In this document: positions 5,437-32,409 of the stretch, in pieces
Position numbering within the stretch: the stretch's first letter is position 1
How the letters are laid out: each line of letters starts with the position of its first letter
Source of the DNA: Tricholoma matsutake
Taxonomy: Eukaryota > Basidiomycota > Agaricomycetes > Agaricales > Tricholomataceae
NCBI GenBank assembly: GCA_026075535.2
Contig: AP026548.1
Location: 7,688,001-7,752,000, forward strand
Reading direction: 5' to 3'
DNA length: 64,000 nucleotides
The notes under the pieces: generated by a model
Databases searched by the model: none
Told to the model about the DNA's origin: nothing
What the model saw: the letters and a program-made list of their open reading frames with translations, nothing else
Translations under genes and position numbers: made by a program

Positions 5437-5463
5437 GAGGTCTTTACACTCCCCCCCCCCCCC

Positions 5464-5640
5464 AATCCGAGCAGACTCCGCTCAGACACTCGGACAGTCC
5501 TAGGACTTTGCTCAGACTTCTCTGGCTGAAAGTCCTGCCAAAGTCCAGTCCGAGCTGAGTCTGAGCTGAGTCCTTGGACTGTCCTAGGACAGTCTGAGCA
5601 TCCAAGCGGAGTCCGAGTGGACCAGCACTTGTACAGTCCT
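5464..5640. repeat. Subterminal TCCGAG repeats, left end of E1
   Basis: Many degenerate copies of a 10-15 bp motif around CTCGGACAGTCC and GAGTCCGAG in both orientations, directly inside a 14-nt poly-C run. The mirrored counterpart is at 7528-7615. Similar motif clusters sit inside the ends of E2 and E3. Subterminal repeats of this kind are usual transposase-binding sites in hAT and CACTA elements, so that role is inferred here. Confidence 0.7.
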
Positions 5641-5684
5641 ACTGTCCAAGTTGCTTGTATAATTGACTGAAAAATCAGTGGCTA

Positions 5685-5760
5685 CCACAGGGATTGAACC
5701 CTTGTAGTCACATGATAAAGTACAATTAAGGCAGCGATATAACCGTTAGACTAAAGCATC
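5685..5760 (-). ncRNA. tRNA-like module, left side of E1
   Basis: Read on the minus strand, there is an A-box-like TAGTCTAACGGTTA (5741-5754) and about 40 nt later a B-box-like GGGTTCAATCCC (5690-5701), with flanking bases that can form a T-arm. No full cloverleaf closes, so I call it tRNA-derived rather than a tRNA gene. It would be transcribed outward, towards the left terminus. Confidence 0.55.
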
Positions 5761-5933
5761 ATTACAGGTAAGTAGTGGTGAGGGGTCTGCATGCTACAAC
5801 AGTTTTATCTCTCTATGTACTGCCCCGGCTGTGATGACAAATCAACACAGCTGTGTCATCAACAATGCTGGCACATCACCTTCAATGGTGCCGCCTCCTC
5901 CTTACCTCCTACCCCAATAACCAACAACGGGAA

Positions 5934-5967
5934 TGAGCCCAAATGACGGTATTGTCATTTGGGCTCA
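5934..5967. repeat. Palindrome module 1 of E1
   Basis: Inverted repeat with 14-bp arms TGAGCCCAAATGAC and GTCATTTGGGCTCA around a 6-bp centre. The same GGCCCAAA palindrome precedes intron-like sequences elsewhere in E1, in E2 (11574-11607) and in E3 (three copies). Confidence 0.75.
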
Positions 5968-5970
5968 CTT

Positions 5971-6034
5971 GTAAGTGTTTTTTTACATGATTTTTGTTGT
6001 TTTGTTTAACTAACTGAATTTTCCTTAATGATAG
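5971..6034 (+). other. Intron-like segment 1 of E1
   Basis: GTAAGTG donor, a T-rich tract, a TTTAACTAAC branch-like site and ...GATAG acceptor, 64 bp. It lies immediately after palindrome module 1. Size and signals match the introns of the host MYB gene in this window. Confidence 0.55.
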
Positions 6035-6298
6035 GTTTTATCTATGTTATAACAATGCCGCAGCCTCAAAACCATGACAACGGCTGACACATCCACCACC
6101 CTAGGACCCAGAACCAGCAGCGCAAGCAACTGCTCGTGGGGTGGGAACGGGTACAACTGCAAAATGGCAGGACATCGGCAACACTGACTTGTCCAAATGG
6201 AACGACAACACAATGAGGTGACTGGAGATGACTGGGAGATGGAATGACGAGGGGATGAGCAGGAAACAATGAAAGGAAGGCAAAGTGTATGAAGAAAA

Positions 6299-6332
6299 GG
6301 CCCAAGAAACATCAAACGACGTCTCTTGGGCC
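6299..6332. repeat. Palindrome module 2 of E1
   Basis: GGCCCAAGA ... TCTTGGGCC inverted repeat. It is the same palindrome type as at 5934, with a diverged centre. Confidence 0.65.
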
Positions 6333-6372
6333 ATTGCAAAGGTGTCCCCCTCTGTGCTGCCCTAGGGCGTTG

Positions 6373-6417
6373 GTAAGTTTGTTTTTCTTGTTTTTGTTAC
6401 TAATGAGCTTTTTTTAG
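6373..6417 (+). other. Intron-like segment 2 of E1
   Basis: GTAAGTTTG donor, T-rich body with TACTAAT branch-like site, TTTTTTTAG acceptor, 45 bp. It follows palindrome module 2. Confidence 0.5.
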
Positions 6418-6741
6418 GTATTATCTAGTACTGCTGACGATGACCACTCAGAACCACTGCCGCGAGCAGCTGCTCGTGGGGTGGGAATGGGTGCAACTTC
6501 AAAACGACAAGAATGGCTACCCCGACAGAACAACAAGACAATGAGACACAGCCCCCACCCCCAGCCCTCATGCCCACCACGCAGGACACACCACCTGCCT
6601 CCAGCCTCACGAGCAACTGCTCGTGGGGTGGATGGTGGGTGGAATGACAACAATGGCAGGGAATGACAACAGCACCCACCCCAGCCCTACAAGCCACTGC
6701 TCATAGGGTGGACGATGGGTGGAACAATGATGATTAGGGGA

Positions 6742-6772
6742 GACCCAAGAGATGTCAACATCTCTTGGGTCC
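6742..6772. repeat. Palindrome module 3 of E1
   Basis: GACCCAAGAGATG ... CATCTCTTGGGTC inverted repeat with a 4-5 bp centre. Confidence 0.65.
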
Positions 6773-6775
6773 TAG

Positions 6776-6821
6776 GTAAGTTTTCTCATTTCATTTTTTG
6801 ATGCTAACTAACTTTTTATAG
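6776..6821 (+). other. Intron-like segment 3 of E1
   Basis: GTAAGTTTTC donor, TGCTAACTAAC branch-like site, TTTTTATAG acceptor, 46 bp. It follows palindrome module 3. Confidence 0.5.
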
Positions 6822-7165
6822 GTACAAACTACTACTGGTGATGACGACGACGGGGGGACACCACCACCACCACTGCGGCGAGCCCCTGCTCACAGTGTGG
6901 AAGGTGATGGGGAAGAAATGAGGGGGAAGGGAGACAAGAGGGAAGGGAGATGAGAGGGAAGGGCAACGAGGGGGAAGGGAGACAACGACAAGAGTGGGGA
7001 CACCCACGATGACACCCACCCCACACCTACGACCATCTGCTCATGGGGTGGTTCGGGGGGGAGAAGAATGGGGACAGGAGAGGAAGATGGCCAGGGGATG
7101 ACCCAGGGAGAGACAAACACCACCACAAGCAACTGCTCATGGTGGCTGTTTTTAATTTATTTTTA

Positions 7166-7262
7166 TAATTGATAGTTACGGCCCTTTCCCCTTGAGTTTG
7201 CAAGGGGAGGGCCTAGTATTATACATATTAATTACCTCTCGCACAGATGCGAGGGGGTCAAT
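7166..7262 (+). terminator. Tandem hairpins near the end of the E1 internal unit
   Basis: Two hairpin-forming inverted repeats. CCCTTTCCCCTT with AAGGGGAGGG lies near 7178-7215, and CTCGCA with TGCGAG near 7236-7252. Equivalent hairpins occur in E2 and E3 next to AATAAA signals, so a 3'-end role for an element transcript is a reasonable inference. Confidence 0.4.
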
Positions 7263-7332
7263 TTAATAATCTATTCATGATATATAAAAAATTAGATTTC
7301 AGTAATAAATAGATATAATATATGTAACTTTA

Positions 7333-7430
7333 AATGACTACTTGGCTTAAGTGGTAGATTGTGCATGGTTGGTCGTCATGTGATTGCTAGTCCAGAATTC
7401 TGTTGGTTCAATTCCTGCTGTGCACACATC
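7333..7430 (+). ncRNA. tRNA-like module, right side of E1
   Basis: A-box-like TGGCTTAAGTGGTAGA (7343-7358) and B-box-like GGTTCAATTCC (7405-7415), about 50 nt apart. Transcription would run outward to the right terminus. No complete cloverleaf was found. Confidence 0.5.
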
Positions 7431-7633
7431 ATTTTGTGAGACTTATAAGAATTTCTCTAAGTCTGGAACTTGGACTTTACTTGGACAGTACTTTAAAGGT
7501 GTAAATAAATGCACAATTGATGTTGTCCGAGCAGTGTCCGAGCAGAGTCCGAGTGAAGTCTGAGGACAGTCTGAGTGTCCGAGTGTGTCTGAGTGGAGTC
7601 CGCTCGGACTGCAGGGGGGAGTGTAAAGTACTG

Positions 7634-7641
7634 TGACTAGG
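7634..7641. repeat. Target-site duplication of E1, right copy
   Basis: TGACTAGG, identical to 5429-5436. Confidence 0.85.
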
Positions 7642-7757
7642 CCTCATTACAGAGGCGAAGAAACCAATTCAGGGCGATTCTATCCATGATGTTAATCTTT
7701 CATAATATAGTTGCATTCACTCAGCATACCTTGTGCACATTGCACAGAAACTTGGGG

Positions 7758-8577
7758 TTAGTGGCATTGGTGGGTACCTTTACTGTCAGAGGAAAAGCTC
7801 CAAGGCATCAGCATTGGCCTAACAAAATAGAACAACAAGTGAGGATTGATAATAGGTGAAATTTTATTGAGGAACCAACATTTCCCCTCGAGAGGAACAG
7901 CGAACAAGGTTGTCTCCACATCTACCTGAGAGAATGGGAGGAGAAGTGAAGATGTCACTCATAAGACCAAAAGCATAAAGCGGTGGTCAGGATCTTGAAA
8001 AACTTTGCAGTAGTAGTTGGAATATCTGGCGGGTGGAGGTATTGCAGCCCTAGTAAAGTGTGAAAAAAGACAAAGAGCTCGAAAGACAAGCTCATGTCAT
8101 AACACGTTTCCATGTTTGATGCTGACAGTTGAGTGCCAAGGCCTGCTAAGAAGAAAATCTTGGCCTCCTGTACCTGCCAGAGAAACATCCAGAGTAGCTG
8201 ACATCGGAAAAAAGCACGATGGGGTGTGTTGAGTAATGGATGAGAAGGTGTGATTGAGAAAGCTCCCAACATTGTCGAATATATGCCACAGAATGTTGAG
8301 AGCGCGGCGATTGGTCAAGACACAAAGAAAAACAAGTTAAAGTGATGGAAGAGAGTGATGGGGAAAATGTGCATATGATTGTGATTTCCATAATGTCTCC
8401 CTCAAAAACTAAATGGATTGACCAAAGTAGAGAAACAATGACATCGGCCACATCCTGAAAGAACAATGACCACAAGTGGGTGGGCAGGCGAAGAAGCACA
8501 AGCAGTGAATATATCTTGATCCAAATACTCTGCGCAACAAAACGACCAGGCTGCAAAGTTAGATGGGCGACAAGCAT
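7758..8577 (-). pseudogene. Unrecognised minus-strand coding remnant
   Basis: Several overlapping minus-strand frames are open here. Fragments look protein-like (PSCFFPMSATLDVSLAGTGG at about 8160-8220; QVDVETTLFAVPLEGKCW at about 7880-7940). No single frame is continuous and I recognise no domain. It could belong with the minus-strand frame at 9137-9628. It is reported because the composition differs from random frames, without a function. Confidence 0.25.
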
Positions 8578-8589
8578 ATATACCCAAAC

Positions 8590-9110
8590 AGAGGCTCAGC
8601 TCATTCATCTGCCATGGGAAGAGAAGTTGAGCCTTGCAAAGGCTTGCGCAAGGCCAGCGAAAGGGAGTTTGGCAGCATCCTGAGATGCGCAAGTGAAATT
8701 GAGCCTCATTTGTTCAGCATGAAACACCATGCGAGGCATATAGAGGGTATCACTAGACAACTGTGTGTTCAGAAGACAAGGCTCATTCATCTGACATGGG
8801 AAGAGAAGTTGAACCTTGCAAAGGCTTGCACAAGACTAGCAAAAGGGGATTTGGCAGCATCCTGAGATGTGTAAGTGAAATCAAGCCTTGTTCACTTAGC
8901 ATGAAACACCATATGGATGGCATCACTAGACAACCATGTGTTCAGAAGGAAAGACTCGCTCATCCAACATGAGAAGGGGAGCTGAGATTTGTGAGAGCTT
9001 ATGCAAGACTAACAAAAGGGAGTTTGGCAACATCCTGAGATGCGCAATTGAAATCAAGCCTTGTTCACTTAGCATGAAACACCCTGCAAGGTATAAGCCT
9101 TGCAAGAGCT
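8590..9110. repeat. Tandem repeat, three units of about 170-190 bp
   Basis: Three diverged head-to-tail units start near 8592, 8781 and 8952. Each has CTCATTCATCTG or CTCGCTCATCCAAC, then a Gly/Lys-codon-rich purine stretch, TTTGGCAGCATCCTGAGATG and CATGAAACACCATG. The units are close enough to align by eye. The third is shortened. They separate two unrecognised minus-strand open frames. Confidence 0.75.
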
Positions 9111-9136
9111 TGTGGAAGACTAGTGAGAGCCTGTAC

Positions 9137-9628
9137 TCACCATGAGACTGCCCATAGCATGCCCATTCTTTTGTGCCCCACGCTCAAATTAACATAGCTG
9201 TGATTCACCCCCAGCCTGCAAACCACCATATCTCCAGACCAGATGACATCCCAATTAATTACTCTGAGACCTTCATTCCTTAAGAATAGTCTGTGGAAGC
9301 GATATGCCAGTAAGACAGAGAAAGAGTCCCCAAAGTACTCTAGTGTGATGATGGTTTTCTTGACAAGGTCGTCGGTTATTTCTTTGATGGAGGCAACAGA
9401 GCTCATAGCTATACAGGTAATGGATCTCAAATGCAAGTGGGAAATGTCACTTTGTGATGGTTTGAGTTTGGAGGGAGGTATGAAAGGATGGTTTAAATAC
9501 TGACAGTCTTTGTTTGGCACGCGGTTAAGGACTTCAAGTTCAAAATCCAGCCGATAAAGACAAAGGGTGAAAAATTGCTCGTCCACGTTTGGAGAAATCC
9601 GAGCTGTTTTTTGTGACTTCATAGTCAT
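9137..9628 (-). CDS. Hypothetical protein, 163 codons
   Basis: A complete minus-strand frame from ATG at 9626-9628 to a stop at 9137. The protein has a mixed, protein-like composition with segments EFELEV-like near residue 30 and TIITLEYFGDSFSVLLAYRF near the middle. I recognise no domain, signal peptide or membrane segment of note. The downstream side runs straight into the tandem repeat at 8590-9110. It may be a short multicopy hypothetical or a chance frame. Confidence 0.3.
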   Translation of the reverse strand: MTMKSQKTARISPNVDEQFFTLCLYRLDFELEVLNRVPNKDCQYLNHPFIPPSKLKPSQSDISHLHLRSITCIAMSSVASIKEITDDLVKKTIITLEYFGDSFSVLLAYRFHRLFLRNEGLRVINWDVIWSGDMVVCRLGVNHSYVNLSVGHKRMGMLWAVSW

Positions 9629-9639
9629 GGTTGTATCAG

Positions 9640-10433
9640 CGACCCTTGGTAAAATGGCATCTATGCATGAATTGCGATCATGACCGTGAGCAAGATCTAG
9701 ACCCCTCTAATGTCATGTGCCTAATGAAATGGTTAGTGTTGATTGTTTTTGATTAAGTTAACGACAACGTTCCTGGCATAACAAGATACTGTGCTTCCCT
9801 CCTCGATCAATTAGTCTCAGTATGATGATCCTGCATACACATGGAGTCATGTGATCTCATCCCTTTCATCATGTAGTTTCCTTTGTTTTTGGTCTGTTGT
9901 GAAGTGTTATAAAATCCATCTGATGTGTGCATCCCCAGCTCCATCCTCCTATTATGCATCCACATACCCAGCATAATTGCACACAAAGGTGTTGGAATTC
10001 AAATCGGCATTTTGGACAGGGTGGAGCTGCATTACCACTCCATCCTACACCTGACATTCACAAGTGTGCTTGATCATACTCCCCTGTGCAGTCAAACAAA
10101 TGCCCATGACAGTTAATTCAAGTTGCTGAATATCAGTCCCCCCATGTAGGATTACTGCATGATAGTATCATGGATGATACTGCCAGTGAAGATGAGTATA
10201 CTGAGAGCAATAACACCCTGGTTTGTTGCCCCTTTTTTTCTTTAACTTTGGTAGTAACACTTGAGTTAGGATGGTTGTGGCCTATCCAATGATTCTTGTT
10301 CTGATGTAGCAATGTTGTTCAGTACAGCGCAGGCAATTGCACATGGATCTGACTTCTCTATCTCTGTCACTGGCTGCACAGAAAGATACTTCTAAGAAGG
10401 TATGATGTCAGTATTCTGGAAGTACTTCTAATA
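9640..10433. other. Non-coding stretch, nothing recognised
   Basis: No convincing coding block. Its right end contains AATACTG-type short repeats (10411-10436) that recur at 12340-12404 and 19641-19680. It ends at the octamer CTGCCACC that flanks E2. Confidence 0.4.
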
Positions 10434-10441
10434 CTGCCACC
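10434..10441. repeat. Target-site duplication of E2, left copy
   Basis: CTGCCACC, identical to 12263-12270. Confidence 0.85.
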
Positions 10442-10589
10442 CAGTAATTTACAGTGCCCCACATGTCCTAGCGGACTCTGTACAGACTGTGGGGAGTCCA
10501 AGCTAGTCTGTATGGGTCAATTTGATATCTTACAAGTTCCAAGCTTTTCATACTTTATGAAAGTCATGACGTGCCTACAAAATATAGGT

Positions 10590-10675
10590 GTGCAGAGCAA
10601 GGATTGAACCCAAGACCTCCAAGTCATCACACAACAAACCAAACACATGTGATCAACCAGTTGAGCCACAGGAGA
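10590..10675 (-). ncRNA. tRNA-like module, left side of E2
   Basis: On the minus strand there is TGGCTCAACTGGTTGA (A-box-like, 10653-10668) and GGGTTCAATCC (B-box-like, 10601-10611). It faces outward, as in E1. Body and anticodon arm do not fold cleanly. Confidence 0.55.
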
Positions 10676-10765
10676 ATTATTTGTTAGTAATACATAGTTT
10701 ATTTATGACACTCAAACTCAAACTCAAGTATTTATCTTTCAAAAATTGAACAAATAAATTTTATT

Positions 10766-10900
10766 AACTGCATCCCTCGCATCTAACACGAGGTAGTATA
10801 CAATACAATCAAAGAAATACAAAAAAAACTAATAATAACTACATTACAAACTATAGATTTAAAAAAAAAACTCCCCCAGAAATGTGGGGGAGGGCTAAAA
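10766..10900 (-). terminator. 3'-end-like block of E2: hairpins and AATAAA
   Basis: Read on the minus strand: a hairpin CCTCCCCCACATTTCTGGGGGAG (stem CTCCCC/GGGGAG, 10870-10896), a second CCTCGTGTTAGATGCGAGG (10772-10794), then AATAAAATT just beyond (10755-10764). The order resembles the 3' end of a transcription unit running on the minus strand through the element. Confidence 0.45.
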
Positions 10901-10924
10901 GAAAAAGAAGAAAAAAAAACCCAC

Positions 10925-11220
10925 CCCACGACCCCATGAGCAGTTGCTCGTGAGGCTGGGGGTGGGTGGTGCGCTGTCATCTCCTATCCCTGCACCTAGG
11001 TGTCGTTCCACCCACTATCCACCCCATGAGCAGTTGCTTGTGAGGCTGGGGGTGGGTAGCTTGTTGTTGTTGTTGTTCCACCTGCGATTGACCCCACAAG
11101 CAGTTGCTCATGAGGCTGGGGGTGGGTGGTGCATTGTCATTGTCTCCTTTCCCTGCATCTGGGCATTGTTCCACCCATGTTCCACCCCACAAGCAGTTGC
11201 TCGTGAAGCTGGGGGTGGGT
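10925..11220. repeat. GAGCAGTTGCTC box repeats of E2
   Basis: Four regularly spaced copies (about 10937, 11028, 11099 and 11190) of GAGCAGTTGCTCGTGAGGCT or close variants, each followed by GGGGGTGGGT. Spacing is about 70-90 bp. Translations in several frames look repetitive, which reflects the DNA repeat. Confidence 0.7.
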
Positions 11221-11508
11221 GGCTTGTCGTTGTTCATTGCCATTGTCCCCCATTTGGGTTTCTGTATTTTCTTTTTTTTTTGGGGGGGGGGTTTGGGTGC
11301 GTCAGTGTGAAGTGGCACAATTACGGAGGTTGGTGGGTGCTTACTAGGCAGGTATCCCCCTTCTGGGGTCTCCTGGCATCCCTGGGCACCCTCCTAGCCC
11401 ATGTCGACAGCCTCACATCCCGTTTGAATGGGGAGGAGGGGATCAGGTGGGCGTGGGCATGGGTTGCGTGTTTTTGGTCGTGGCAGGTCATGCCCAGTAG
11501 CATACAAC

Positions 11509-11570
11509 CTAAAAAGCAATAAAATACAATTAGCTGATTGATAAAACAAAAAGCAAAAAAAAACACTTAC
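11509..11570 (-). other. Intron-like segment of E2
   Basis: On the minus strand: GTAAGTG donor (11564-11570), T-rich body, CTTTTTAG acceptor (11509-11516), 62 bp. It lies directly after the palindrome, the same order as in E1 and E3. Confidence 0.5.
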
Positions 11571-11573
11571 TAG

Positions 11574-11607
11574 GGGCCCAAACAACGATTATCATTGTTT
11601 GGGCCTG
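11574..11607. repeat. Palindrome module of E2
   Basis: GGGCCCAAACAACG with CATTGTTTGGGCC arms. It is a near relative of the E1 and E3 palindromes. Confidence 0.7.
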
Positions 11608-11862
11608 TTGTGTGGGCTTGGCTCATTGGGTCCTGTTGCATCGGCTCAGCTAGTTTGCTGTTTGTTGCTGATGGTGCAAGAGGCATCGGAGGTGGGGGCT
11701 GACTGGGCGGTGGTGGTGGTAGAGGGAGGTGGGAGGCAGTGGCGTCGAGAGTGATGGTGGTGATCAACATCAACAATGATTGTTGACACATCTTGAACTT
11801 GCACATGAGTCACGTGATATAAATACAGTTAGATAATGCAATTGTTTGCACTTACTGATAAC

Positions 11863-11935
11863 AGCTCTGTGGTGTAGTGGTTAACTGCACTATTTATGCT
11901 TGGCGACAAGGCTTGGGGTTCGATTCCACTTTAAT
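11863..11935 (+). ncRNA. tRNA-like module, right side of E2
   Basis: GGTGTAGTGGTTAACTGC (A-box-like, 11871-11888) and GGGGTTCGATTCC (B-box-like, 11915-11927), 44 nt apart as in a tRNA gene. This is the best tRNA resemblance in the family. The acceptor stem does not close, so a functional tRNA is unlikely. Confidence 0.6.
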
Positions 11936-12262
11936 ACATAATTTTTCTGTAGTCAGCTAAGCCTCTGTTGTGCATCCACAGACTCAACTCAGACTCGACT
12001 TGGACATGTATCTGTCCGAGTCCGAGTAAATTGATGTTGCTCGGACAAAGTCCATGCGCACTCCGAGTAAAAGTCCAAAAATAGCTGGACTCCACAAAAG
12101 TCCATGTGGACTCTCTAGGAGTCCAAGCAATATACAGGACATTTGAGCCAAATGAGTGGGTCCAGTCCGAGCTAGTCTGTGTGGAGTCCAAGCTAGTCCA
12201 TGCAGAGTCCACCAAATTCCACGTGGACTGGCTCAGAATACATGGGGCACAGTAAAGACCTC

Positions 12263-12270
12263 CTGCCACC
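12263..12270. repeat. Target-site duplication of E2, right copy
   Basis: CTGCCACC, identical to 10434-10441. Confidence 0.85.
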
Positions 12271-12399: not shown

Positions 12400-12404
12400 A
12401 ATAC
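12400..12404. repeat. Target-site duplication of the Gypsy element, left
   Basis: AATAC, matching 19641-19645. Confidence 0.8.
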
Positions 12405-14035: not shown

Positions 14036-14419
14036 TCATCTCCGGCCCGTTGCAGTGCAACTATTTGTTTTTTCTATGGCTGGTATGTTCATTTTCAGGT
14101 AGGGGAGTGGGATCACCTTGGGCTCATAGCCCATCATGAGGTAGAATGGGGAGTTCTTCTGTATGGAGTGCGTTCTCTGGTTGTGCGTGAACTCCGCAGT
14201 TGGGAGGAGGTGCTTCCAATTCTCCTGGTTGTTTGAGCAGAAGATCCGTAAGTATACTTCCACTTCCTGGTTCACCTGTTCTGTCTCCCCGTCAGTCTGG
14301 GGGTGGTATGCTGTGCTCATTGCCAGCTTGATTCCAAGCAGTCTTCCTAGCTCCTGGAACAGCTGCAAGGCAAATCTGGGATCTCTGTCAGAGATGAAGG
14401 CCGAATCATTTGTAGACAT
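14036..14419 (-). CDS. Integrase catalytic core, fragment
   Basis: Contains AFISDRDPRFALQLFQEL (second catalytic Asp) and AYHPQTDGETEQVNQEVE (catalytic Glu), the last two residues of the DDE triad. A small deletion near 14412 separates it from the upstream frame that holds the first Asp (TDFITDLP). A slip in AGAAAAAAC near 14065 shifts the downstream part. Confidence 0.85.
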   Translation of the reverse strand: MSTNDSAFISDRDPRFALQLFQELGRLLGIKLAMSTAYHPQTDGETEQVNQEVEVYLRIFCSNNQENWKHLLPTAEFTHNQRTHSIQKNSPFYLMMGYEPKVIPLPYLKMNIPAIEKTNSCTATGRR

Positions 14420-16901
14420 TGTCTAGATAGAGGGTGGCCGCTCCCAATGCATCCACAGTTTTCCTGCAAGGGATAAAAATTACCCCCTTCATAAGCCCAT
14501 GGTCTACCACGACCATGAGTGCATCATAACCGTCGGACTCTGGTAAGTCAGTTATAAAATCTGTCATCACCATCGCAAATGGTCTCGTTGCTTTGGATTT
14601 GATCGGTTGCAGTGGGGGTGTTGTCGGGTGGGTGTTGACCTTCATTTGCTGGCATGTGGTGCATCCAGCAACATAGTTCTTGATGTATGTCATCATTCCT
14701 GGCCACCAGTAGTCCCTTCTGATCATTTCGGTAGTCTGCCATTGTCCCGGGTGTCCACTGGTTATTCCTTCATGGTACTTTTGCACCAGCCTCTTCTGCA
14801 GTTCTCCATTGTTGGGGACATAGCACCTGTCTCGGAAGAATAGAAGGCCGTCTGCTATCTTCCAGTCTTCCAATGCCGACTTTATCGGCGGTGTTCCTTT
14901 GGTCTTCAGCGCCTCGATTGCACTTTTCACCAGGTTGTCTTTCATGATACTCCCTGCGAGTAAGTCATGCATTTCGGTGTCAATGAATTTCATGAATACT
15001 GTTTCCGGCAGCATTGTGATGTCTTCATTGTCGTTGTCTTCTTCTGGTACGTGATCCGCTCTCCGTGATAATGCATCGCTCTGCACCATCTGTGATCCAG
15101 GCACATGGACGATTTGCAAGTCGAATTCTGATAGGAATAAGCTCCATCTTGCCTGTCGTCTGTTCAGTTTCTGCAACATTCGGAAGTACGTCAAGTTTTT
15201 GTGATCCGACAGGATTACCACTGGGTGCTCTGAACCCATCAGGTAGTGTCTCCAGGTTTCTAGCGATCGTATTATTGCTAGTAGCTCCCTGTCATAAATC
15301 TCGTAGTTCCGTTCCGTTGGTGTTAGTGCATGCAATATGTATCTGCATGGGTGCCAGTCTCCATTCGTGTCCCTTTGTCTCAGCACTCCTCCTGTCGCAT
15401 GTTTTGAGGCGTCTGATTCAATCGTGAATGGCTTTGTCGGGTCTGGCATCAGCAGTACCAGGGCTTCTGCGAATTTCCTTTTCAGCATTTGAAAAGCCTG
15501 TTCGCATTCCGTTGTCCAGTTGAACATTTTGTTCTTCTTTGTCAGTTCATTAAGCAGTCTGCTTGTCTCCGCAAAATGTCCAATGAATTTCCTGTAGAAA
15601 TTCCCAAATCCCAGGAAGGATCTGACTGCCTTTATGTTTGTTGGGGTAGGCCAATCCTGTATACCTGCCAGTTTTGTGTTGTCCATGGCAATTTCATTGG
15701 GTCGGATGATTAGACCCAAGAATTCCACTTCGTGGACATCAAACTTGCATTTCTCCGGCTTCAGGTATAAGTTGTTTTCTGCCAGTCTTTGCAGTACCCT
15801 CTTTGTCCTTTCCTGGTGTTTGTTCTGATCCTTGGAGAATATCAGGATGTTGTCCATGTAAATCACGAGCCATCCCTCTCCGATCATGTCATGGAATATC
15901 TCGTTCATCATTGCCTGGAAGGTCGCCGGTGAGTTGCATAATCCGAAGAACATCACCGTTGGTTCAAACAGCCCCCGATTTGTCTTGAAGGCTGCCTTCC
16001 ATTGATCTCTGTCCTTGATTCTGACATTGTGATATCCCCATCAGATGTCTAATTTTGTAAACCATTTTGCCCCTCTCAGTTTGTCCAACAGGTCTCCTAC
16101 CAGCGGCAGCGGGTAGGTATTCTTGATCGTTCCATTGTTCAAATACCTGTAATCTTGGCAGGGTCATAGCGCATCCGAGTCCTTCTTCGCAACGAAGAAG
16201 AATGGCGATGCCATGGGCGATTTCAATGGTCAAATGTATCCCTTCTGTAGGCTTTCATCAAGAAACTCGTTGAGTTTCTTTTGTTCTGCCAGTGACAATG
16301 GGTAAACCCTGCAATCCTTTGCCATAAAGTCCATTTTCAGTTCGATCGCATGATCCCAGGGTCTTGATTCTGGGAATCTCTCTGATGCTTCCTTTTCGAA
16401 TATCCGTCGGTACTCCCTGTACTGTTTGGGGAGTAGTTCATCGAGGGTCTTTTGTTCGGGGTCTCCTTCCTTCTTGTGTGTCAGGTGTTGTGAGACCGAT
16501 GTTTTTGCCCTGATCCAGATATTTTGTTCATAAGCATATCGCGGTGATCCTTTTGCCTTTACGATCCGAGAGATTGTCCTCATCGTCTGAGAATATCCAT
16601 ATCTTGGCTCATCATACTCCTCTGTCAGCGGTGTCTTAGCTGGTTTGAATATTCCAATGACGGGTTCTCCTCAGATGTAGGTGACCAGTAGCTCGTCGTC
16701 TTTGATCTTTAGTTTGGGTGTCTCTTTCAGTAGTTCCGTTGCCTGTTCCGTTGCCTGTTCGTGGTTTGCCTGTGCTGGGTTTTCCTTCCCAGTGTCTTCT
16801 TTGTCTTGCAGCCCAATGGGTTCCGCATTCTGAAGAGTTGTGATCGCAATCTCTTCATCGTCAATTTCTTCGATCGTCGCTTTTCTTCTCTTGATGGGCA
16901 T
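14406..16901 (-). pseudogene. Gypsy pol: reverse transcriptase, RNase H and integrase N-terminus
   Basis: One reading frame runs from about 17780 to 14406 with TGA interruptions. Within this part they are at 16671-16673, 16230-16232, 16164-16166 and 16041-16043. Recognisable in order are the RT segment MVYK..GYHN.. and FGLCNSPATFQAMMNEIF, then VIYMDNILIFS (YxDD box altered to YMDN). RNase H follows with FTIESDASKHATGGVLRQ and ILSDHKNLTYF, then the integrase HHCC zinc finger (SGHPGQWQTTEMIRRDYWWP, CTTCQQMK) and TDFITDLPESDGYDALMVVV. The long open part is 14406-15956. Expression of a full polyprotein is excluded by the stops. Confidence 0.92.
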
Positions 16902-23682: not shown

Positions 23683-23687
23683 CCTGT

Positions 23688-25858: not shown

Positions 25859-26137
25859 TTGCTTTACTGGGTTGTGGAGCGGATGTGTGGTGGGGAGTGT
25901 TGCTAGTTGTAGTGCAGCTTGGAATCATACTTTGTCGACTAGTAGGTGAAATGGCAAGAGGTTGGCATGAATGTCTAGAGAATCCATCAGCAAGGTGCGC
26001 ATCCCCCCCACTATCATTACAGCGGCCCTCCATTGTACTGCAGCTAGCTTGTTGAGTGCTGCTCGTCCCCCTTTGCTGGCTTTAATAGATGTGCTTCGCA
26101 ACACTGGTCCCAAAAACATGTCAGTGCCATAGAGCAT

Positions 26138-27064
26138 TCAGGGCTTCACAACAGAGATGTAAAGCCTACGCATGTGTCGCCCTGACACTCCTCCTGATGG
26201 TCTCGCAATCCTGCTACATTGCCCTAACCAGTCCTGCCCTTTTCCCAATGCTGCTGCGAGCTGTTCCTTCCACCTCAACTCTCTATTGATGTGCATTCCT
26301 AGAAATTTAATGGATGTGGCTGACTCTATTCTCTGCCCGTTTAGCATCAGAGCCGGTCTTGATATTGGTATCCTCTTGCGTGGCCAAAATTGATCTCGCA
26401 TTTTCCGTCGCGATAGATCCACAAGTTGGAATTTCTCAACCCTGAAAGAGCAGTTGTGCGTCATGGCCCACTCCAATATTCCTCCCTCCCTGTTCATGAT
26501 GTCCCTCAGCTTCTCATGTGTGATGTGGAAGTTTGCCCCTGTCACCAGTGCTGCTGCATCGTCCATGTACAGAAGACCTGTCTCCTTTGCAGCCTTCCAG
26601 AAGATCCGTAGAAGTAGCAGGTTGTAGATTAGCCACGCTATGAGCGAATGTGCATCTCCTTGATCTAGACCGTCCTCGACATCGATGGGCTCGGATCTGA
26701 AGTCATCAAAAATGAGTGTAGTTCTTCTGCCCTCCAACTGCTGTCCCACCCATTCCACATGTTCTTCTGGAACTCCATGTAGTTGCATCTCATGCTTCAT
26801 CACATCAACCACTGTACTTGGGAATGCTCCCTTCACATCCAAGCACAGCAGCGAGGTCACCTCCCCCTTCCTCCACGCATCCTTCACTGTTTTCACCATC
26901 AAGTGTACTGAGTCCGTGGTTGCTCTACCTGGTCTCACTCCGAAGTGGTTGGGCGGAAGAATTCCTGTCGTTTCACACATCAGTACTAGGTCTTCTGTTT
27001 TGCATCCGTTCAGTAGCCTTGCATAACCATTGGATAAAACTATTGGCCGCCACACATTTGGCAC
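26138..27064 (-). CDS. LINE reverse transcriptase, C-terminal two thirds
   Basis: 308 codons with NVWRPIVLSNGYARLLNGC, ILPPNHFGVRPGRATTDSVH, SLLCLDVKGAFPSTVVDVMK, LDQGDAHSLIAWLIYN and the active-site box LLYMDDAAALVTGANF. The YMDD catalytic pair is intact. The start of the domain (VTETPVLKK, at 27799-27830) lies on the other side of a solo LTR. The frame changes into the connection region near 26033. Confidence 0.9.
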   Translation of the reverse strand: MPNVWRPIVLSNGYARLLNGCKTEDLVLMCETTGILPPNHFGVRPGRATTDSVHLMVKTVKDAWRKGEVTSLLCLDVKGAFPSTVVDVMKHEMQLHGVPEEHVEWVGQQLEGRRTTLIFDDFRSEPIDVEDGLDQGDAHSLIAWLIYNLLLLRIFWKAAKETGLLYMDDAAALVTGANFHITHEKLRDIMNREGGILEWAMTHNCSFRVEKFQLVDLSRRKMRDQFWPRKRIPISRPALMLNGQRIESATSIKFLGMHINRELRWKEQLAAALGKGQDWLGQCSRIARPSGGVSGRHMRRLYISVVKP

Positions 27065-27089
27065 TGTGTAGTCTGGTTTTCCTGGCTTC

Positions 27090-27798
27090 TGTTAAGAACT
27101 GATCCTAGAGGGTTCGTCGGAATCTGATCGGACACTGCAGGTGTTATTTACAGAAGGTTGTTGGGTCGTTGCAGATTTGGTGGGGAGGGGAAATGGAAAG
27201 GACTTGGCTTCAGCTTGTAAGAAGCTGCGCCCTTCACCTTGTCCGGTGTCCTAATTTTAAGTTGGAGGTTTGGAGGTAGGGACGGGAAAGTGCAGGTAAA
27301 TGTGGAAAGGAGTACAGAGGGACTTAGGTTAAGTTCAGATGAGGTTAGAACTTCAGAGGGAGACTGGAGGTCGAGTTGAACAGAGTTCAGACTCTTAGAG
27401 AACTGGGGTTTGGAGTAGAAGGAGGTTTTTGATTGGCAGATTAAAGTCGAGTCTATGTCGATATACGAACTGAGGAATACAAGGCGAAACTAGCTAAGCT
27501 TAAATACTGTAGTCTGGAATAATGTGGAACAGGAACAAAGACTGTGGCAGTGTCTCAACTGCGTAGATAAATTATCTAGCGGGAGCCGCACAGGAATCTG
27601 TAGTCAAATTTGCAATAGAGACGGCAGCCTTGGGAAGGCAACCGTGGATGCTGTACAAGGCGGCCTGGTGCACAGCAGTGTGGGCAGTGCAAGGCAGCCA
27701 GGAACGAAATTGGGAGGTGTAGGCCAAAGTCATGTTCAACGTGCGGGAAAGAGTCGGATGGATGCGGGTTCCGATCGGGCGAGGAACGGTTCTTGACA
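27090..27798. mobile_element. Solo LTR, 709 bp, inside the LINE, TSD GCTTC
   Basis: TGTTAAGAACTGATCC ... GGTTCTTGACA with GCTTC at 27085-27089 and 27799-27803. It sits between codons of the LINE reverse transcriptase (PVLKK ... PGKPDYTVPN), so the LINE is older. A diverged relative, sharing ACTTGGCTTCA-CTTATAAGAA and CTTCACCTTGTC, occurs at 45544-45870. Confidence 0.88.
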
Positions 27799-27803
27799 GC
27801 TTC

Positions 27804-28900
27804 TTGAGAACTGGTGTCTCAGTCACCTTCCAATCACTGGGGTAAACTTTGAGTGAGTCAGCAGCGTGGAAAATCAGGCCAAGGTGGGGGACTAGAAGTT
27901 CCCGTGCGTGTATGAATACCGAGTTGGGTACTGTGCCTGTCCCCATGGCTTTCCAAGGTTTCATCTTCCATATGGTGCGATGTATCTGCTCATCAGTAAC
28001 TGGTTGATATTCCCATCGTGGCAGGGGATATGGTTCACTTGGTGCTGGTGCTGGTGCTGCTGTTCGTGGGGGGAAGAATGTTTGGTAGAAGAGCTTCCCT
28101 TTCTCCTCGTTGGTGCATGCTTCCTGTGTAACTACCTTCATGATCGGGTCTTTTACTTGCAGGGTTGGCACTCGACTTCTTCCTCTGTCTGATGCTGGCC
28201 CTGTCACCAGCCAATTTGCCATCCATACCCCTGCATCATCCAACGACTCTAGCCACTCTGCCCAATGATTTGCCTTTGCATCGTGTATGGCTAATGAGTA
28301 ATCATTTCTTGCTTGACAAAACGTTTCATGTATTGGGTCCCCATCCGCCGCCTGCCTCTGATATGATTTCCTTGCTAGTTTCTCCTTCTTCTTCTTCAGT
28401 TCTGCCAACTCCTTCGACCACCACCTCTTTGAGTATGGACTGTGTTTGGACATTGGGACATGCTTTTTGATGACTGCTTTGATTACCAGATCTAGTTGTT
28501 CAATTGTGGTGTGGAACTGTGCCACTGTGGTGAGTTCCTCTGGTTCCGGTAATGTTCCAAGGCTAGCCTCCAATGTTTCACAGAACTCTTCCCAGTTTGT
28601 CAATTTGAAATTGTACTTGGCTTCGAAATCCATCCGGGGTGGTACAACCTCAAGATGGCTCAGGATTGGCATATGATCTGTCTTCTGTGGTCGCTGCTGT
28701 GGGTTGGTGTTGCAAGTGATAAAAGCGTCCAACAGTGTTGCAGAGCAGAATACATTGTCGACTTGAGTATAGTTCTTTGTTGAGCTGGCTTCTAGTGTTG
28801 GTATGTCTTTTGGTAGTGCCATCTTCATATCATACTTTGCAACCATGTTCAGTAGTGGCTGTGTTGCCTTGAGCGTAGAGATGAGCATTCCGCTCCTCAT
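27804..28900 (-). CDS. LINE endonuclease-RT linker and RT N-terminus
   Basis: The block includes the end of the endonuclease, FCSATLLDAFITC, YKKRWWSKE-type (here YSKRWWSKELAELKKKKEKL), RNDYSLAIHDAKANHWAEWL, and WKMKPWKAMGTGTVPNSVF, which is the start of the reverse-transcriptase domain. It is then cut by the solo LTR after VTETPVLKK. The open frame runs on into the LTR to 27572, but that tail is not LINE. Confidence 0.85.
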
Positions 28901-28904
28901 CCCA

Positions 28905-29390
28905 CAATGGATGGTGCTGATTGAAGTCCCCTAGCCAAATGTATCACACCCTTTCGCCCACCGCATGCCTCCTCACTGCTCCTCTCATGTACTCCTTCAC
29001 CACCTCCAGGCTCCCATTATGTTCGCAATCATTGTATACATTTATTATGCAGATTGTTCCGAAGTCCCCATCTAGGCATACCCTGGTCACATCCTGTGAG
29101 GGGAATGGGATTTCTGTCCAGTTGTTCGATGCCATCTTGCAGTTTACTAGAATTACAGAGCGCGTATCACTTGGGGTTTTTAAGTGTAGTTGGGGGTATA
29201 TGACTGTCCAGTGTAGGTTGGATCTCATCCAACCTAAATGGTCAATATGTGGTTCCTGCAGCATTGCGAAGTCATAGTCATCAGCTCTAAGGGATTGTAG
29301 AAGGTCGAGTTGCCCCTCCAGGGAGCAATTCAGGTTTTGCTGCCAGATTTGTAGCTGCTGTGGTTCGCATGGTTCTGGTGTATCAGGCAT
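28905..29390 (-). pseudogene. LINE apurinic-type endonuclease, N-terminal part
   Basis: From ATG at 29388-29390: LQIWQQNLNCSLEGQLDLLQ, DYDFAMLQEPHIDHLG (catalytic Asn and Glu region), VILVNCKMASNNWTEIPF and VCLDGDFGTICIINVYNDCE. A one-base shift near 28935 moves the frame. The next motif, GDFNQHHPLWDEERNAHL, is read in the frame that continues into 28900. The 5' boundary at 29390-29399 touches E3. Confidence 0.8.
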
Positions 29391-29639
29391 GGACTACCTC
29401 AGTAATTTACACTGCCCCATATGTTCCGCGCAGATCCATGCAGACTGTGCGGACTCCATGTGGAGTCCAACCATCTGGTGACCAAAATGAAAAATTACAC
29501 CCCTTTCACCGTGGACTCTGCCCCAGTCCACATAAGTCCACATAAGTCCATACAGATTCCAACCATGTGGTGACCCAAATGAAGAATTGAGGCATGGGTT
29601 GATGGCAAAAAAAAACAAGGATGCCCCATGATGGGGGAC

Positions 29640-29760
29640 ATTTTATTGGTAGTATTAAATACAAAAAAGTTGCCCCCCTGCCAAAGAGGGGGGCAGTAGA
29701 CTATAGAATAAAATAAATAACCCACCGTCTCGCTAGCATGCGAGACAGCAGGGGCAGGTG
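29640..29760 (-). terminator. 3'-end-like block of E3: hairpins and AATAAA
   Basis: Minus-strand order: GTCTCGCATGCTAGCGAGAC (stem 7 bp, 29725-29744), then CTGCCCCCCTCTTTGGCAGG (29672-29695), AATAAAATG (29640-29650) and CCCCCATCATGGGG near 29620. Same parts as in E1 and E2, with the two hairpins in swapped order. Confidence 0.45.
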
Positions 29761-30250
29761 CATTCATTGTCGGCCTTCCCTTGTGGCCCCCTCTTGTCCC
29801 CCCTCACTGTTCCCTGTTGGTCTGTATGCACCCCCCTTCCTCGTCGTTGTTCCACCTGTGATCCACCCCATGAGCAGTTGCTCATGAGGCTGGGGGCGGG
29901 TGGTGTGCTGTCATCTCCTGTCCCATCTCCCTTGTCATCTCCCTCCCCCTCCCCCTTTGTCTCCCTTTCCTCTCGTCTCCCATCCCCCTCATCATCATTC
30001 CACCCACCATCCACCCCACAAGCAGTGGCTCGCGAGGCTGGAGGTGGGTGGTGTGTCCTTGTGGGGTGGATGGTGGGTGGTGTGTCGTTCTGTGGTTGGC
30101 GTCGGTTTTGTCGGTGTCATGGGGCTGGGGGCGGGTGGTGTGTCATCCCTCACCATGGGTGGTCGTGGTGGGGCCCTGGTGCTCATTTTCGTCTGTTTTG
30201 GGGGGGTTTGCGTCGTCCTGCATTGTCCGTCATTACCTGTAGATTAGAAC

Positions 30251-30317
30251 CTAAAAAACAAAGAAAACAATTAGTTAGTTGAGAAAAAGAAGAAATGAAT
30301 AAAAAAATATTACCTAC
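30251..30317 (-). other. Intron-like segment of E3, unit 1
   Basis: Minus strand: GTAGGTAATATT donor, TCAACTAACTAATTG branch-like region, TTTGTTTTTTAG acceptor, 67 bp. The adjoining palindrome is at 30318-30350. Confidence 0.5.
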
Positions 30318-30417
30318 AGCCCAAACGATGCAATTGTGTCATTTGGGCCCACATTGCTTCTGGTCGGCTTGTTTGCAGCTCTTCGTGGCCATGGAGTTGT
30401 TACCTGTAGATTAGAAC

Positions 30418-30484
30418 CTAAAAAACAAAGAAAACAATTAGTTAATTGATAAAAAGAAGAAATGAATAAATAAAAATTACCTAC
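30418..30484 (-). other. Intron-like segment of E3, unit 2
   Basis: Near-identical to unit 1, with the palindrome at 30485-30516 on its upstream (minus-strand) side. Confidence 0.5.
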
Positions 30485-30551
30485 GGCCCAAACGACGCAA
30501 TTGCGTCCTTTGGGCCCACGTTGTCATCCGTCGTTACCTGTAGATTAGAAC

Positions 30552-30617
30552 CTAAAAAACAAAGACAACAATTAGTTAGTTGATAAAAAGAAGAAACAAA
30601 TAAAAAAAATTACCTAC
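30552..30617 (-). other. Intron-like segment of E3, unit 3
   Basis: Near-identical to units 1 and 2, with the palindrome at 30618-30650 on its upstream side. Confidence 0.5.
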
Positions 30618-30904
30618 GCCCAAATGACGCAATTGCGTTGTTTGGGCCCACATTGCTTCTGGTCAGCTTGTTGGCAGCTCTTCGTGGCCATGGAATGGGG
30701 CTGGGAGTGGGTGGAGGTGATGTGTGTAGAGTGGAGATGGTGGTGGTAGAGAGGGAAGGAGGGAGGGAGTGAGGTGGCAGCGTGGTCGTCGTCGATGGTG
30801 GTGGTGGTGAGTGATGAGCTGGCAATGTTGATGACGCGGCTGTGTGCTTTGTCATACGAAGCCAAACAGTCGTATGTAGTTGCATCAATGGCTACAAACA
30901 ATAA

Positions 30905-30985
30905 TAGCTGTGTAGTGTAATGGTAATGTGCATCTGTACTTGTTAGTTAGCCATGAGGCTCCGAGTTCAAACACCATTCATGACA
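30905..30985 (+). ncRNA. tRNA-like module, right side of E3
   Basis: TGTGTAGTGTAATGGTAATG (A-box-like, from about 30909) and CCGAGTTCAAACACC (B-box-like, 30961-30975). Faces outward, as the counterpart in E1 and E2. No matching left module was found in E3. Confidence 0.55.
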
Positions 30986-32409
30986 TTATTTTGCTAAGCT
31001 CAAATGGTCTGCTCGGATGGATGCGGACTGTCCTTGCTGGTCCTTGCTCGTACTTGCTGTCTGATCTCAGATGCAGACAGCCGAAATCCATGGAATCCAA
31101 GTAAAAAGTGTGGAATCCAAGCTAGTCTGTGCGGATCCATGCGGACTGTCTGCCCCTGTTGCATAACTAAAACTGTTCATTAGATGGGATGTAAATCTAT
31201 ATGGAGTCCATGCAGATCCATGCAGAGTCCATGCAATTCCACACGGATCTGCGCAGAACATATGGGGCAGTGTAAAGACCTCGGAATGGGGATGGGGATC
31301 AGAGCCGGAGCCAGAACAGGAGCTGGAATGGGAGCCGGAACAGGAATGGGAGCTGGAATGGGAGCAGGAGCTCGAGGGGAGAGCAGGTGAAAGAAACCAC
31401 AGGTGCCAGCAGAGCCATCAGGATCCAGGTCATGCCAGCCAGAACATCGACACCCAGATGCGTGCCCATTGGCACCACCCACCCCAACCACTCCAGCAAG
31501 ACCAAGTGAGAGTGGCAGGACCAGGTGACTTCAGAGCAGCAGTGGGAGCTCTGGTGAGGATTTAGAAAATGATGGGGAATCAGAGGGGATGGAAAGCAAT
31601 GGAGCTGGATTGTTGGAGTGAAAGGACTGAAGGGAACAATGGCAACAACTGGTGCATGGGGCAGTAAGGCCCACTCCCTGCATATGATGCTTCCGGCTTT
31701 GGCGACAATGTCACAAACAGGTCAATGGGAAGGGCACATGTTTCGAATGTGGGAAGGGCAAAGCCAAGTGCGAAAAAATGAAAGATGGTCATGGAGGGGA
31801 CAAGCCAGAGAAAGGAAAGGGTGCAGCCAGAAGAAAGGTGAAGAAGGCTGGATCCTCACGGAGGTTCACAAGGGAAGAAAAAGGAAAATCGAAGGGTAAG
31901 TACTACATATCACCATACAAATAACCACTGAACATTGACCACAGCAACATATTCCTCTGACGTCAAGATGGTTGACATCACACACGAACACCTGCCCTCA
32001 CCCTCTCCCTCACCCTCTCCCACTCCCATTACTGCTGGGGAGCTCCGTGACTTCAACAACTGTATACAAGAACTGGAGCATAATCTGTACAATCAGGGTG
32101 ATTGGCTCCATCAGAACTTCCCCAGAGCAATGGCCAACATACGGGAGAATATGGCCAGCTTGAGCAGGAGGATGGGTGAGATGGAAAGTACATGGGGTTC
32201 TGCCCACAACCCCTTGTGTTGTACAATGGTGCAGGTGAGCTGCACTATCTTGGAGAGGGTCCAAGCTATAAGCAAAGGTATGGTATGGAGGTCGACGAAG
32301 ATGAGCAGGATGCTGGGGCCACTGTTTGGGAGGATCACTGGCACAGGGCCACTGATTCTGGTAGTGAGGAAGATAGACATGAGGTGGCTTGGCCTGAGGA
32401 AGATGGAGG

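Follow-up and report, generated by a model that had tools for sequence, protein, structure and literature searches.

The ends of hAT transposons follow the consensus YARNG, and Ac/Ds-type members duplicate 8 bp of target DNA, as does the family of Tricholoma matsutake elements analysed here. The matsutake ends, however, lie off this consensus and are unlike each other within their first 6 bp, the interior is ordered and noncoding, and no hAT partner was found in the loci examined. What the family has in common with non-autonomous Ac/Ds-type elements, as the cited passages describe them, is terminal inverted repeats (TIRs), subterminal repeats and heterogeneous interiors without a transposase (PMC3260210). 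Basidiomycete KDZ (Kyakuja-Dileera-Zisupton) transposons, abundant in the matsutake genome, resemble the family in their 8-bp duplications, given for Zisupton, a Dileera element and KDZ1 in the passages cited; they differ in carrying transposases and, for KDZ1-3, TIRs of 139-241 bp (PMC12810828, PMC12730594). The KDZ matches that neighbour two family ends (L069 and L070, see below) do not lie in one element with them.

Fungal tRNA-derived SINEs possess a Pol III-type internal promoter, and each is a single promoter unit that moves through reverse transcription. The matsutake family has instead two outward-reading modules inside a TIR element, and it shares with AfuSINE2-like SINEs, in the text cited, a relation to tRNA (PMC5063351). 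In the same genus, the dimeric Alu-like element megB1 is found in the rDNA spacer of many Agaricomycetes, with one copy outside the rDNA spacer in section Caligata; it is described as a retroelement in the cited passages (PMC10627285). Introners, from what the cited texts report, are likewise repeated spliceosomal intron cassettes (PMC9860276, PMC4457414), whereas the cassettes of E3-type matsutake elements mostly lie inside an element: among 100 listed, 80 stand in sense orientation in an element whose exact left end precedes them, and another 3 are found at about 1 kb from a right end.

Ends, target duplications and copy number

Our analysis of the window, by which we mean the whole 64-kb stretch of DNA studied, showed that the elements E1, E2 and E3 (Table 1) belong to a large family of non-autonomous inverted-repeat transposons. 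Five or more sequence subfamilies can be distinguished in it, two of them known from left parts only. The coordinates and termini proposed for the three elements in an earlier note were borne out, as were the exact 8-bp duplications around E1 (TGACTAGG) and E2 (CTGCCACC); the flanks of E3 contain no target duplication. Full-length copies measure about 1.8-2.2 kb, and their two asymmetric ends (GAGGTC and CAGTAM) share an inverted core.

Table 1. Positions of the elements and their features in the window
Feature	Position	Strand	Remark
Element E1	5437..7633	+	GAGG end left, CAGTA end right
E1 target duplication TGACTAGG, left flank	5429..5436
E1 target duplication TGACTAGG, right flank	7634..7641
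E1 left subterminal repeat region	5457..5656		AGTCC/GGACT, TCCGAG
E1 left Pol III-type module (predicted)	5671..5753	-	A box, B box, T4; reads outward
E1 hairpin 1	5935..5966	+	4 nt before 5' splice site
E1 predicted intron 1	5971..6034	+
E1 GAGCANNTGCTC boxes	6124, 6464, 6611, 6880, 7031, 7127 (span 6124..7138)	+
E1 hairpin 2	6299..6332	+	imperfect; ~40 bp before its intron
E1 predicted intron 2	6373..6417	+
E1 hairpin 3	6742..6771	+	4 nt before 5' splice site
E1 predicted intron 3	6776..6821	+
E1 3' hairpin	7180..7213	+	upstream of AATAAA (7304)
E1 right Pol III-type module (predicted)	7343..7435	+	reads outward
E1 right subterminal repeat region	7516..7611
Element E2	10442..12262	-	GAGG end at 12262
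E2 target duplication CTGCCACC	10434..10441
E2 target duplication CTGCCACC	12263..12270
E2 Pol III-type module, CAGTA end (predicted)	10579..10668	-	reads outward
E2 AATAAA	10760..10765	-
E2 GAGCANNTGCTC boxes	10938, 11028, 11098, 11191 (span 10938..11202)	-
E2 predicted intron	11509..11570	-
E2 hairpin	11575..11605	-	4 nt before 5' splice site
E2 Pol III-type module, GAGG end (predicted)	11870..11945	+	reads outward
Element E3	29400..31282	-	GAGG end at 31282
E3 AATAAA	29642..29647	-
E3 GAGCANNTGCTC box	29872..29883	-
E3 predicted intron 3	30251..30313	-
E3 hairpin 3	30318..30350	-
E3 predicted intron 2	30418..30480	-
E3 hairpin 2	30485..30517	-
E3 predicted intron 1	30552..30613	-
E3 hairpin 1	30618..30649	-
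E3 decayed left module	30898..30997	+	A box kept, B box mismatched

The proposal of a family with asymmetric ends, 8-bp duplications and a shared ordered interior was supported. The left-end 14-mer has 1,178 exact occurrences (1 for the reversed control) and the right-end 14-mer 737 (1 for the control). Besides the 100% self match of E1 (L001), seven other copies (L002-L008) were examined, and alignment borders are sharp in 8 E1-type copies; for E3 (self match L009) the E3-type relatives examined are L010-L038. When 27 distinct copies were delimited by strict ends, target duplications flanked 21 of them, against 2 of 702 swapped-flank controls: 18 are 8-bp duplications with at most one mismatch (11 exact, 7 one-mismatch) and 3 are exact 9-bp duplications, while the remaining 6 copies, E3 included, lack a recognisable one. 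Facing end pairs 0.8-4.1 kb apart on chromosome 1 combine a GAGG with a CAGTA end in 16 of 18 cases and like with like in 2; three further pairs stand back to back. No named family with these features was found in the literature searched, in keeping with the earlier note, which did not recognise the combination as a described family. Unclassified repeats make up 25.4% of the matsutake genome in Table 2 of the assembly paper (PMC10211490), and the family could be part of this fraction.

The motif common to the subterminal regions of E1-E3 is AGTCC/GGACT, with 14, 14 and 10 occurrences in the outer 300+300 bp of E1, E2 and E3, respectively, and none inside; TCCGAG, previously thought to be the shared repeat, reaches a high density in E1 alone (TCCGAG/CTCGGA 9 times, against 5 in E2 and 2 in E3). 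The absence of a transposase from all three elements was confirmed: the longest stop-to-stop frames span 123 aa (E1), 207 aa (E2) and 181 aa (E3), and the latter two, which were the frames scanned, gave no Pfam match. A protein-coding interior was rejected, since the longest ORFs, spliced or unspliced, differ between copies and none is common to them.

Modules, hairpins and predicted introns of the interior

The two tRNA-like modules of the earlier note are present in E1 and E2, each with A box, B box and T4, and Pol III activity is predicted for them from these motifs; in E3 the first module is decayed, with a mismatched B box, and the second is missing. The composite Pol III motif, which like the intron pattern below was composed after inspection of these same elements, occurs four times in 64 kb, always within E1 or E2 and reading outward, and never in 60 shuffles. 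Left modules align between subfamilies (z 3.4-9.5, six pairs; E3 with E2, z 9.3), as do the right modules of E1 and E2 (z 14.1). All 20 E3-type copies are without a right module by pattern, with no clear alignment either, and without the consensus left module; the strict left module is present in 2 of 6 E1-type copies. The modules did not stand up as tRNAs: ARAGORN recognised no tRNA gene or cloverleaf in the window, and Rfam gave no match at E<=1 over E1-E2. Over E3 it gave 13 weak matches, none to tRNA (11 microRNA families, suhB and CrcZ) and all under gathering scores, so that a microRNA reading was dropped as well.

The rest of the described order was found in every element: hairpin-intron units (three in E1, one in E2, three in E3), for which splicing is predicted, GAGCANNTGCTC boxes at 0-1 mismatch (six, four and one, respectively) and AATAAA. 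A hairpin lies about 4 nt upstream of the predicted intron in 75 of 81 units, and the counterpart of the more distant E1 hairpin 2 does so in L002 and L005. The strict intron pattern, also devised on these elements, matches 73 times in sense and never in antisense in 27 copies (shuffles, mean 0.3); a looser scan of the window gave matches outside the elements too, and one antisense match in E2.

The search for an autonomous partner

Given the 8-bp duplications, the subterminal repeats known from Ac/Ds (PMC3260210, in the passages cited) and the frequency of hAT in this genome (at least 151 matches, with 150 of 449 first-look candidates scored), the family might be a Ds-like internal-deletion derivative of a classic hAT element, mobilised by a hAT transposase. 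We consider this rather unlikely, and the hAT partner anticipated earlier was not found in the 30 hAT loci examined: none contains an autonomous partner with the same ends, and those with readable 3' borders end otherwise, for example in GGTTGGAGCCTTA. On chromosome 1, no listed end has any of the 15 listed hAT places in the 6 kb on its inner side (mean at random 0.99). Both ends of the family, GAGGT and CAGTA, are also without the G at position 5 of YARNG. The same motif is given for P elements in the cited passage (PMC2820524). An apparent shared right end in five of the 30 loci (L039, L050, L051, L055 and L057), a one-mismatch match about 150 bp behind the transposase domain, proved internal, because it runs on into the same flank, TATCC[AG]TATA, in all five; GGTTGGAGCCTTA lies at or near the border of the last four, and the aligned stretch of L039 stops earlier. 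Other one-mismatch matches occur elsewhere in L047, L048, L050, L061, L062 and L065, that in L061 resembling a nested insertion.

Descent from a KDZ element, which we regard as unlikely, would agree with the 8-bp duplications of Cryptococcus KDZ1 in the cited text (PMC12810828), with the abundance of KDZ (at least 165 matches, 150 of 831 first-look candidates scored) and with the 3 of 29 listed chromosome 1 places that lie in the 6 kb on the inner side of a listed end, a count close to the 1.92 averaged at random. However, L069 and L070, the two loci examined, in which a KDZ match lies just inside a left end, did not prove to be partners: element homology stops before the KDZ part (breaks at query 286-291 and 642), and the break in L070 is also where other copies of its KDZ part, on C3 and C13, start. 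A 97% copy of L069 (C1:5245344-5247390) spans its break and is read as a segmental duplication; a third KDZ place just inside a listed left end is at C1:14551135. MULEs, considered because of the 9-bp duplications, gave 60 matches (97 of 97 candidates scored), none of 10 chromosome 1 places falling under the same 6-kb limit (mean at random 0.62), and DUF659 had no match in the genome or in the controls, a result that carries no information. Four long chromosome 1 end pairs (L071-L074) were read as candidate autonomous copies, the last two in samples, and none was recognised as such. In L071 a minisatellite has expanded within an element, and L072 resembles one copy nested in another; neither holds a transposase by eye, and one L071 frame had no Pfam match. 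L073 and L074, 1.8-kb samples of 8.2-kb and 7.7-kb pairs, contain LTR-retrotransposon domains (across the two, RVT_1 and RNase H; integrase core, Pol_BBD and GAG-pre-integrase). Further long pairs measure 7.3, 8.7, 10.3, 13.4 and 14.1 kb, the first three enclosing shorter pairs.

Selection, decay and origin of the interior

The earlier note took the retained order as a sign of selection, and this can be upheld in part: between subfamilies the order, the left modules and covarying hairpin arms persist, whereas within subfamilies neither non-CpG rates nor arm swaps gave a clear signal. Change within subfamilies falls mainly on CpG, accounting for 80% of the differences in 20 E3-type copies and 54% in 7 E1-type copies, both computed on the elements alone. 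Non-CpG change in the latter was similar in hairpins (0.030), the left module (0.031) and exons (0.036) and lower in introns (0.022), the right module (0.023) and the 3' region (0.015), by margins too slight to be relied on. A non-CpG divergence of 8.5% for E1-type copies and the first pairwise figures include flanking DNA. Across all 75 units, a hairpin's own arms form Watson-Crick pairs at 5.17 of the 7 inner positions; the figure drops to 3.42 when arms are swapped between the five unit classes, whose stems differ in sequence yet stay complementary. A swap within a class leaves pairing just as good (5.32 of 7), and resident copies thus show no upkeep of pairing. This test replaced one on seven hand-picked units (of 9 positions, own arms paired at 7.7 by Watson-Crick rules and at 8.6 counting G-U, swapped arms at 5.0 and 6.8), which was biased in that three had been chosen for intact palindromes.

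The best explanation, which we hold to be probable, is a cut-and-paste transposon family with a noncoding transcription unit as its interior. A transposase encoded elsewhere would bind the AGTCC/GGACT arrays and cut at the two ends; the retention of at least one predicted intron in 30 of 31 cut copies points to movement as DNA rather than by way of spliced RNA. The interior would be a Pol II-type unit that starts from the GAGG end and heads for the CAGTA end, with one to four small introns, mostly after a hairpin whose end lies some 4 nt upstream of the 5' splice site, hairpin boxes, and then 3' hairpins and AATAAA, and would be bracketed in E1 and E2 by the two outward Pol III-type modules. 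SINE-like movement by reverse transcription, with the pair of Pol III genes as the active part, could account for the tRNA-like spacing of A box, B box and T4, but is very improbable in view of the defined inverted-core ends, the near-constant 8-9-bp duplications, the position of the modules (some 130-400 bp inside the ends, stopping at T4 within the element), the retained introns and a subfamily without the right module. A SINE copy is transcript-shaped, beginning at the Pol III start and carrying a 3' tail, whereas the copies here are bounded on either side by fixed inverted repeats that the modules do not reach. A more serious contender, though we incline against it, is that the interior is neutral filler: a few masters were amplified, the modules persist by descent only, quasi-palindrome correction (template switching) keeps the palindromes, and the T-rich intron-like tracts are unused. 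The dominance of CpG columns, the decay of hairpins along with the rest of the element, own arms pairing no better than those of sister copies and the module lost by the E3 subfamily all agree with it; intron signals in sense only (73:0), the fixed spacing from hairpin to 5' splice site and unit classes with different yet complementary stems do not. The arm-pairing and CpG results made us slightly more inclined to this alternative and slightly less certain of a transposon with a noncoding transcription unit, which remains our preferred reading.

As to the source of such a unit, we suggest only tentatively that an autonomous element, since lost, left its leader and trailer behind, and that tandem duplication of the hairpin-intron cassette later enlarged what remained. 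That the element transports a noncoding RNA gene under selection, producing a spliced, highly structured Pol II RNA in which a hairpin next to the 5' splice site gates each intron, with two outward Pol III units on either side serving as promoters or chromatin boundaries that keep the element open for its transposase, we consider quite improbable. The family combines the lack of a recognisable protein gene with ordered signals resembling those for RNA production and splicing, and may carry noncoding RNA genes. If its cassettes are truly spliced, it would provide more than 100 natural copies for testing the effect of structure beside a 5' splice site, and an example of a DNA transposon with RNA genes in place of proteins as its cargo.

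Ends, target duplications and copy number

Our analysis bore out, to the base, the positions that an earlier note on this DNA had assigned to the three non-autonomous inverted-repeat elements E1, E2 and E3 (see table). In the genome (161,040,721 bases in 13 contigs), the word taken from the left (GAGG) end, GAGGTCTTTACACT, occurs 1,178 times versus once for the reversed word, and that from the right (CAGTA) end, CAGTAMTTTACACT, 737 times versus once for its reversed control. A report on a telomere-to-telomere matsutake assembly gives 4.9% DNA transposons and 25.4% unclassified repeats (PMC10211490). On chromosome 1, the ends listed (the first 100 of the left type, reaching 10.7 Mb, and the 46 of the right type within that stretch) form 16 facing GAGG/CAGTA pairs 0.8-4.1 kb apart (one right end being paired with two left ends), two facing like/like pairs and three back-to-back pairs. 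Throughout the family, then, asymmetric ends appear to be the rule.

The exact 8-bp target duplications reported earlier hold for E1 and E2, while E3 has none. Among 40 loci (L001-L038, L071 and L072), both ends follow the strict pattern in 27, including E1 (L001) and E3 (L009), with E2 outside this count; 11 of the 27 have an exact 8-bp duplication, 7 have one with a single mismatch, 3 have an exact 9-bp duplication and 6 have none. The 13 loci left out are L003, L004, L022, L023, L024, L028, L030, L032, L033, L035, L038, L071 and L072, of which L022 fails the strict left end despite an exact duplication. Swapping flanks between copies gave 2 matches in 702, as expected because the E3-type copies L010 and L016 have the same target, GTTCAAAC; their flanks are also similar, pointing either to a target that is itself repeated or to segmental duplication. 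E3 may lie within a LINE, a setting that could have to do with its lack of a target duplication.

Coordinates of the elements and of neighbouring or related features (window, contig 11, 7,688,001-7,752,000)
Feature	Position	Strand	Remarks
E1	window 5437-7633
E2	window 10442-12262
E3	window 29400-31282
LTR retrotransposon polymerase remains	window 14409-16040	-	RVT_1, RNase H and integrase zinc-binding domain
Reverse transcriptase remains	window 26141-29393	-	RVT_1, E 1.8e-14; LINE-like by our reading
Frame beside the RVT_1 remains	window 28947-29393		no Pfam match; 5' end 6 bases from E3
Further copies of the 88-base stretch, fourth subfamily (example)	C10:10,326,570-10,327,091
Two pieces of the fourth-subfamily left part	C3:4039476-4039831	-	immediately upstream of a KDZ-stretch copy
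Repeat array grown within the long element L071	L071 2320-3150		element enlarged to 3.5 kb; contains frames, about 250-276 aa long, made up of short repeats
Left end of the E1-E3 family at L061	L061 ~2075 (reverse-complement coordinates)		directly behind hAT-related sequence

Predicted introns, hairpins and Pol III-type modules

The interior appears to be noncoding: the longest open reading frames, spliced or unspliced, are not conserved between copies, Pfam gives no match to the largest frame of E2 or of E3, and no frame of E1 exceeds 123 aa. A pattern for small fungal introns composed after inspection of the elements (GTA[AG][GT]T, a branch site and YAG) matches 73 times in sense and never in antisense in 27 copies (6 E1-type, E2 and 20 E3-type); shuffled copies average 0.3 matches. 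The cut copies did not include L003 and L004, and L023, L033, L034 and L037 were excluded for their uncertain ends. A looser pattern also matches elsewhere in the window and once in antisense in E2. Immediately upstream of the predicted intron lies a CCCAA...TTGGG hairpin in 75 of 81 units from 31 cut copies, its stem ending about 4 nt before the predicted 5' splice site, a spacing that allows for GTAG|GTAATT in E3-type units and for outer stem bases. Folding z-scores are -7.2 and -4.4 for the hairpins of units 1 and 3 of E1 and -5.2 for that of E2, and in E1 unit 1 the computed fold pairs further bases, as far as the splice site.

In the 75 anchored units, 5.17 of the 7 inner positions are Watson-Crick pairs when a unit's own arms are matched (6.24 counting G-U), compared to 3.42 (4.87) when arms are exchanged between the five unit classes; the stems of the classes therefore differ in sequence yet fit their own partners. 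One reading of this matching is selection acting on the source lineages, another quasi-palindrome correction. Exchange inside one class gives 5.32 of 7 (6.25 with G-U), close to the value for own arms, so that pairing has not been kept up as resident copies of the same class decayed.

Near the element ends, a composite of A box, B box and T4, composed after the fact, matches four times in the 64 kb, twice each in E1 and E2 and always outward, and not at all in 60 shuffles. Neither ARAGORN nor Rfam calls these modules as tRNAs. The left modules of E1, E2, E3 and the subfamily of L070 (a left end adjoining KDZ sequence) align with one another (z 3.8, 4.9, 9.3, 8.2, 9.5 and 3.4), as do the right modules of E1 and E2 (z 14.1), left-to-right alignments being weaker (z -0.2 to 5.1). 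The strict left module is retained in 2 of 6 E1-type copies and the right module in 5 of 6. E3-type copies have a left module with a mismatched B box and lack a right module, and we have accordingly abandoned the label of a second tRNA-like module in every element. A study of T. bakamatsutake lists 275 tRNA-Ile(TAT) predictions (PMC10627285).

Subterminal repeats, relationships and possible partners

TCCGAG/CTCGGA, which the earlier note took for the common subterminal repeat, is dense in E1 only (9 occurrences, versus 5 in E2 and 2 in E3); the motif in common is AGTCC/GGACT, present 14, 14 and 10 times in the outer 300 + 300 bases of E1, E2 and E3 and absent from their interiors. Subterminal arrays of this kind are binding sites for transposases of several superfamilies. 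Candidate superfamilies for the elements are hAT, KDZ and others that make 8-9-bp duplications, and the former hAT label is to be dropped. No autonomous partner was found among the hAT, KDZ and MULE places checked. The hAT loci L039-L068 comprise several families with other borders, for example L042/43/48/53/56/64 and L044/45/46/54/58/61/66. At L061, the position of the left end directly behind hAT-related sequence makes the family member appear to be an insertion in a hAT element; the hAT relatives of this locus (L044-L046, L054, L058 and L066) may supply empty sites. No DNA transposon with such an interior came up in the literature searched, a result that makes no claim regarding Repbase or Dfam, and nothing was found on hAT, non-autonomous elements, Basidiomycota, tRNA and target site duplication in combination. 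By term counts, the words hAT, TIR, MITE, DNA transposon, tRNA and SINE are absent from a paper on matsutake transposons (PMC6980582).

Cassette distribution, decay and standing of the family

In the genome there are 141 copies of the E3-type 3' splice-site word; among the first 100 places, 80 are in sense and follow an exact 19-base left end at a distance of 0.2-2.1 kb. Four of the other 20 are on chromosome 1, three of them with a listed right end about 1 kb away and the fourth past the stretch spanned by the right-end list. In most of these first 100 places, E3-type cassettes (hairpin plus predicted intron) stay inside elements. Cassette number seems to vary through tandem duplication. In a fourth subfamily (left part of L070), an intron-like stretch of 88 bases is repeated, with as many as four additional copies spaced at about 150 bases, the 5' splice site in L070 itself being non-consensus; a fifth (left part of L069, also adjoining KDZ sequence) has only the first ~290 bases in common.

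Differences from the majority sequence amount to 24.6% in CpG columns and 1.2% in other columns for 20 E3-type copies (80% of differences falling in CpG columns), and to 28.0% and 3.1% for 7 E1-type copies (54%), a set that omits L004 as a near-duplicate of L003; in both sets, elements were compared without flanks and a CpG column was one with CpG in at least one copy. This excess in CpG columns suggests that both types bear traces of methylated-C decay; of the two, the E3 type is probably the younger. The transcription unit and modules that make up the RNA side of the family are predictions from sequence. Its nature as a mobile element is well supported, and we regard the finding of this repeat family, whose noncoding interior is both odd and ordered, as a sound discovery.
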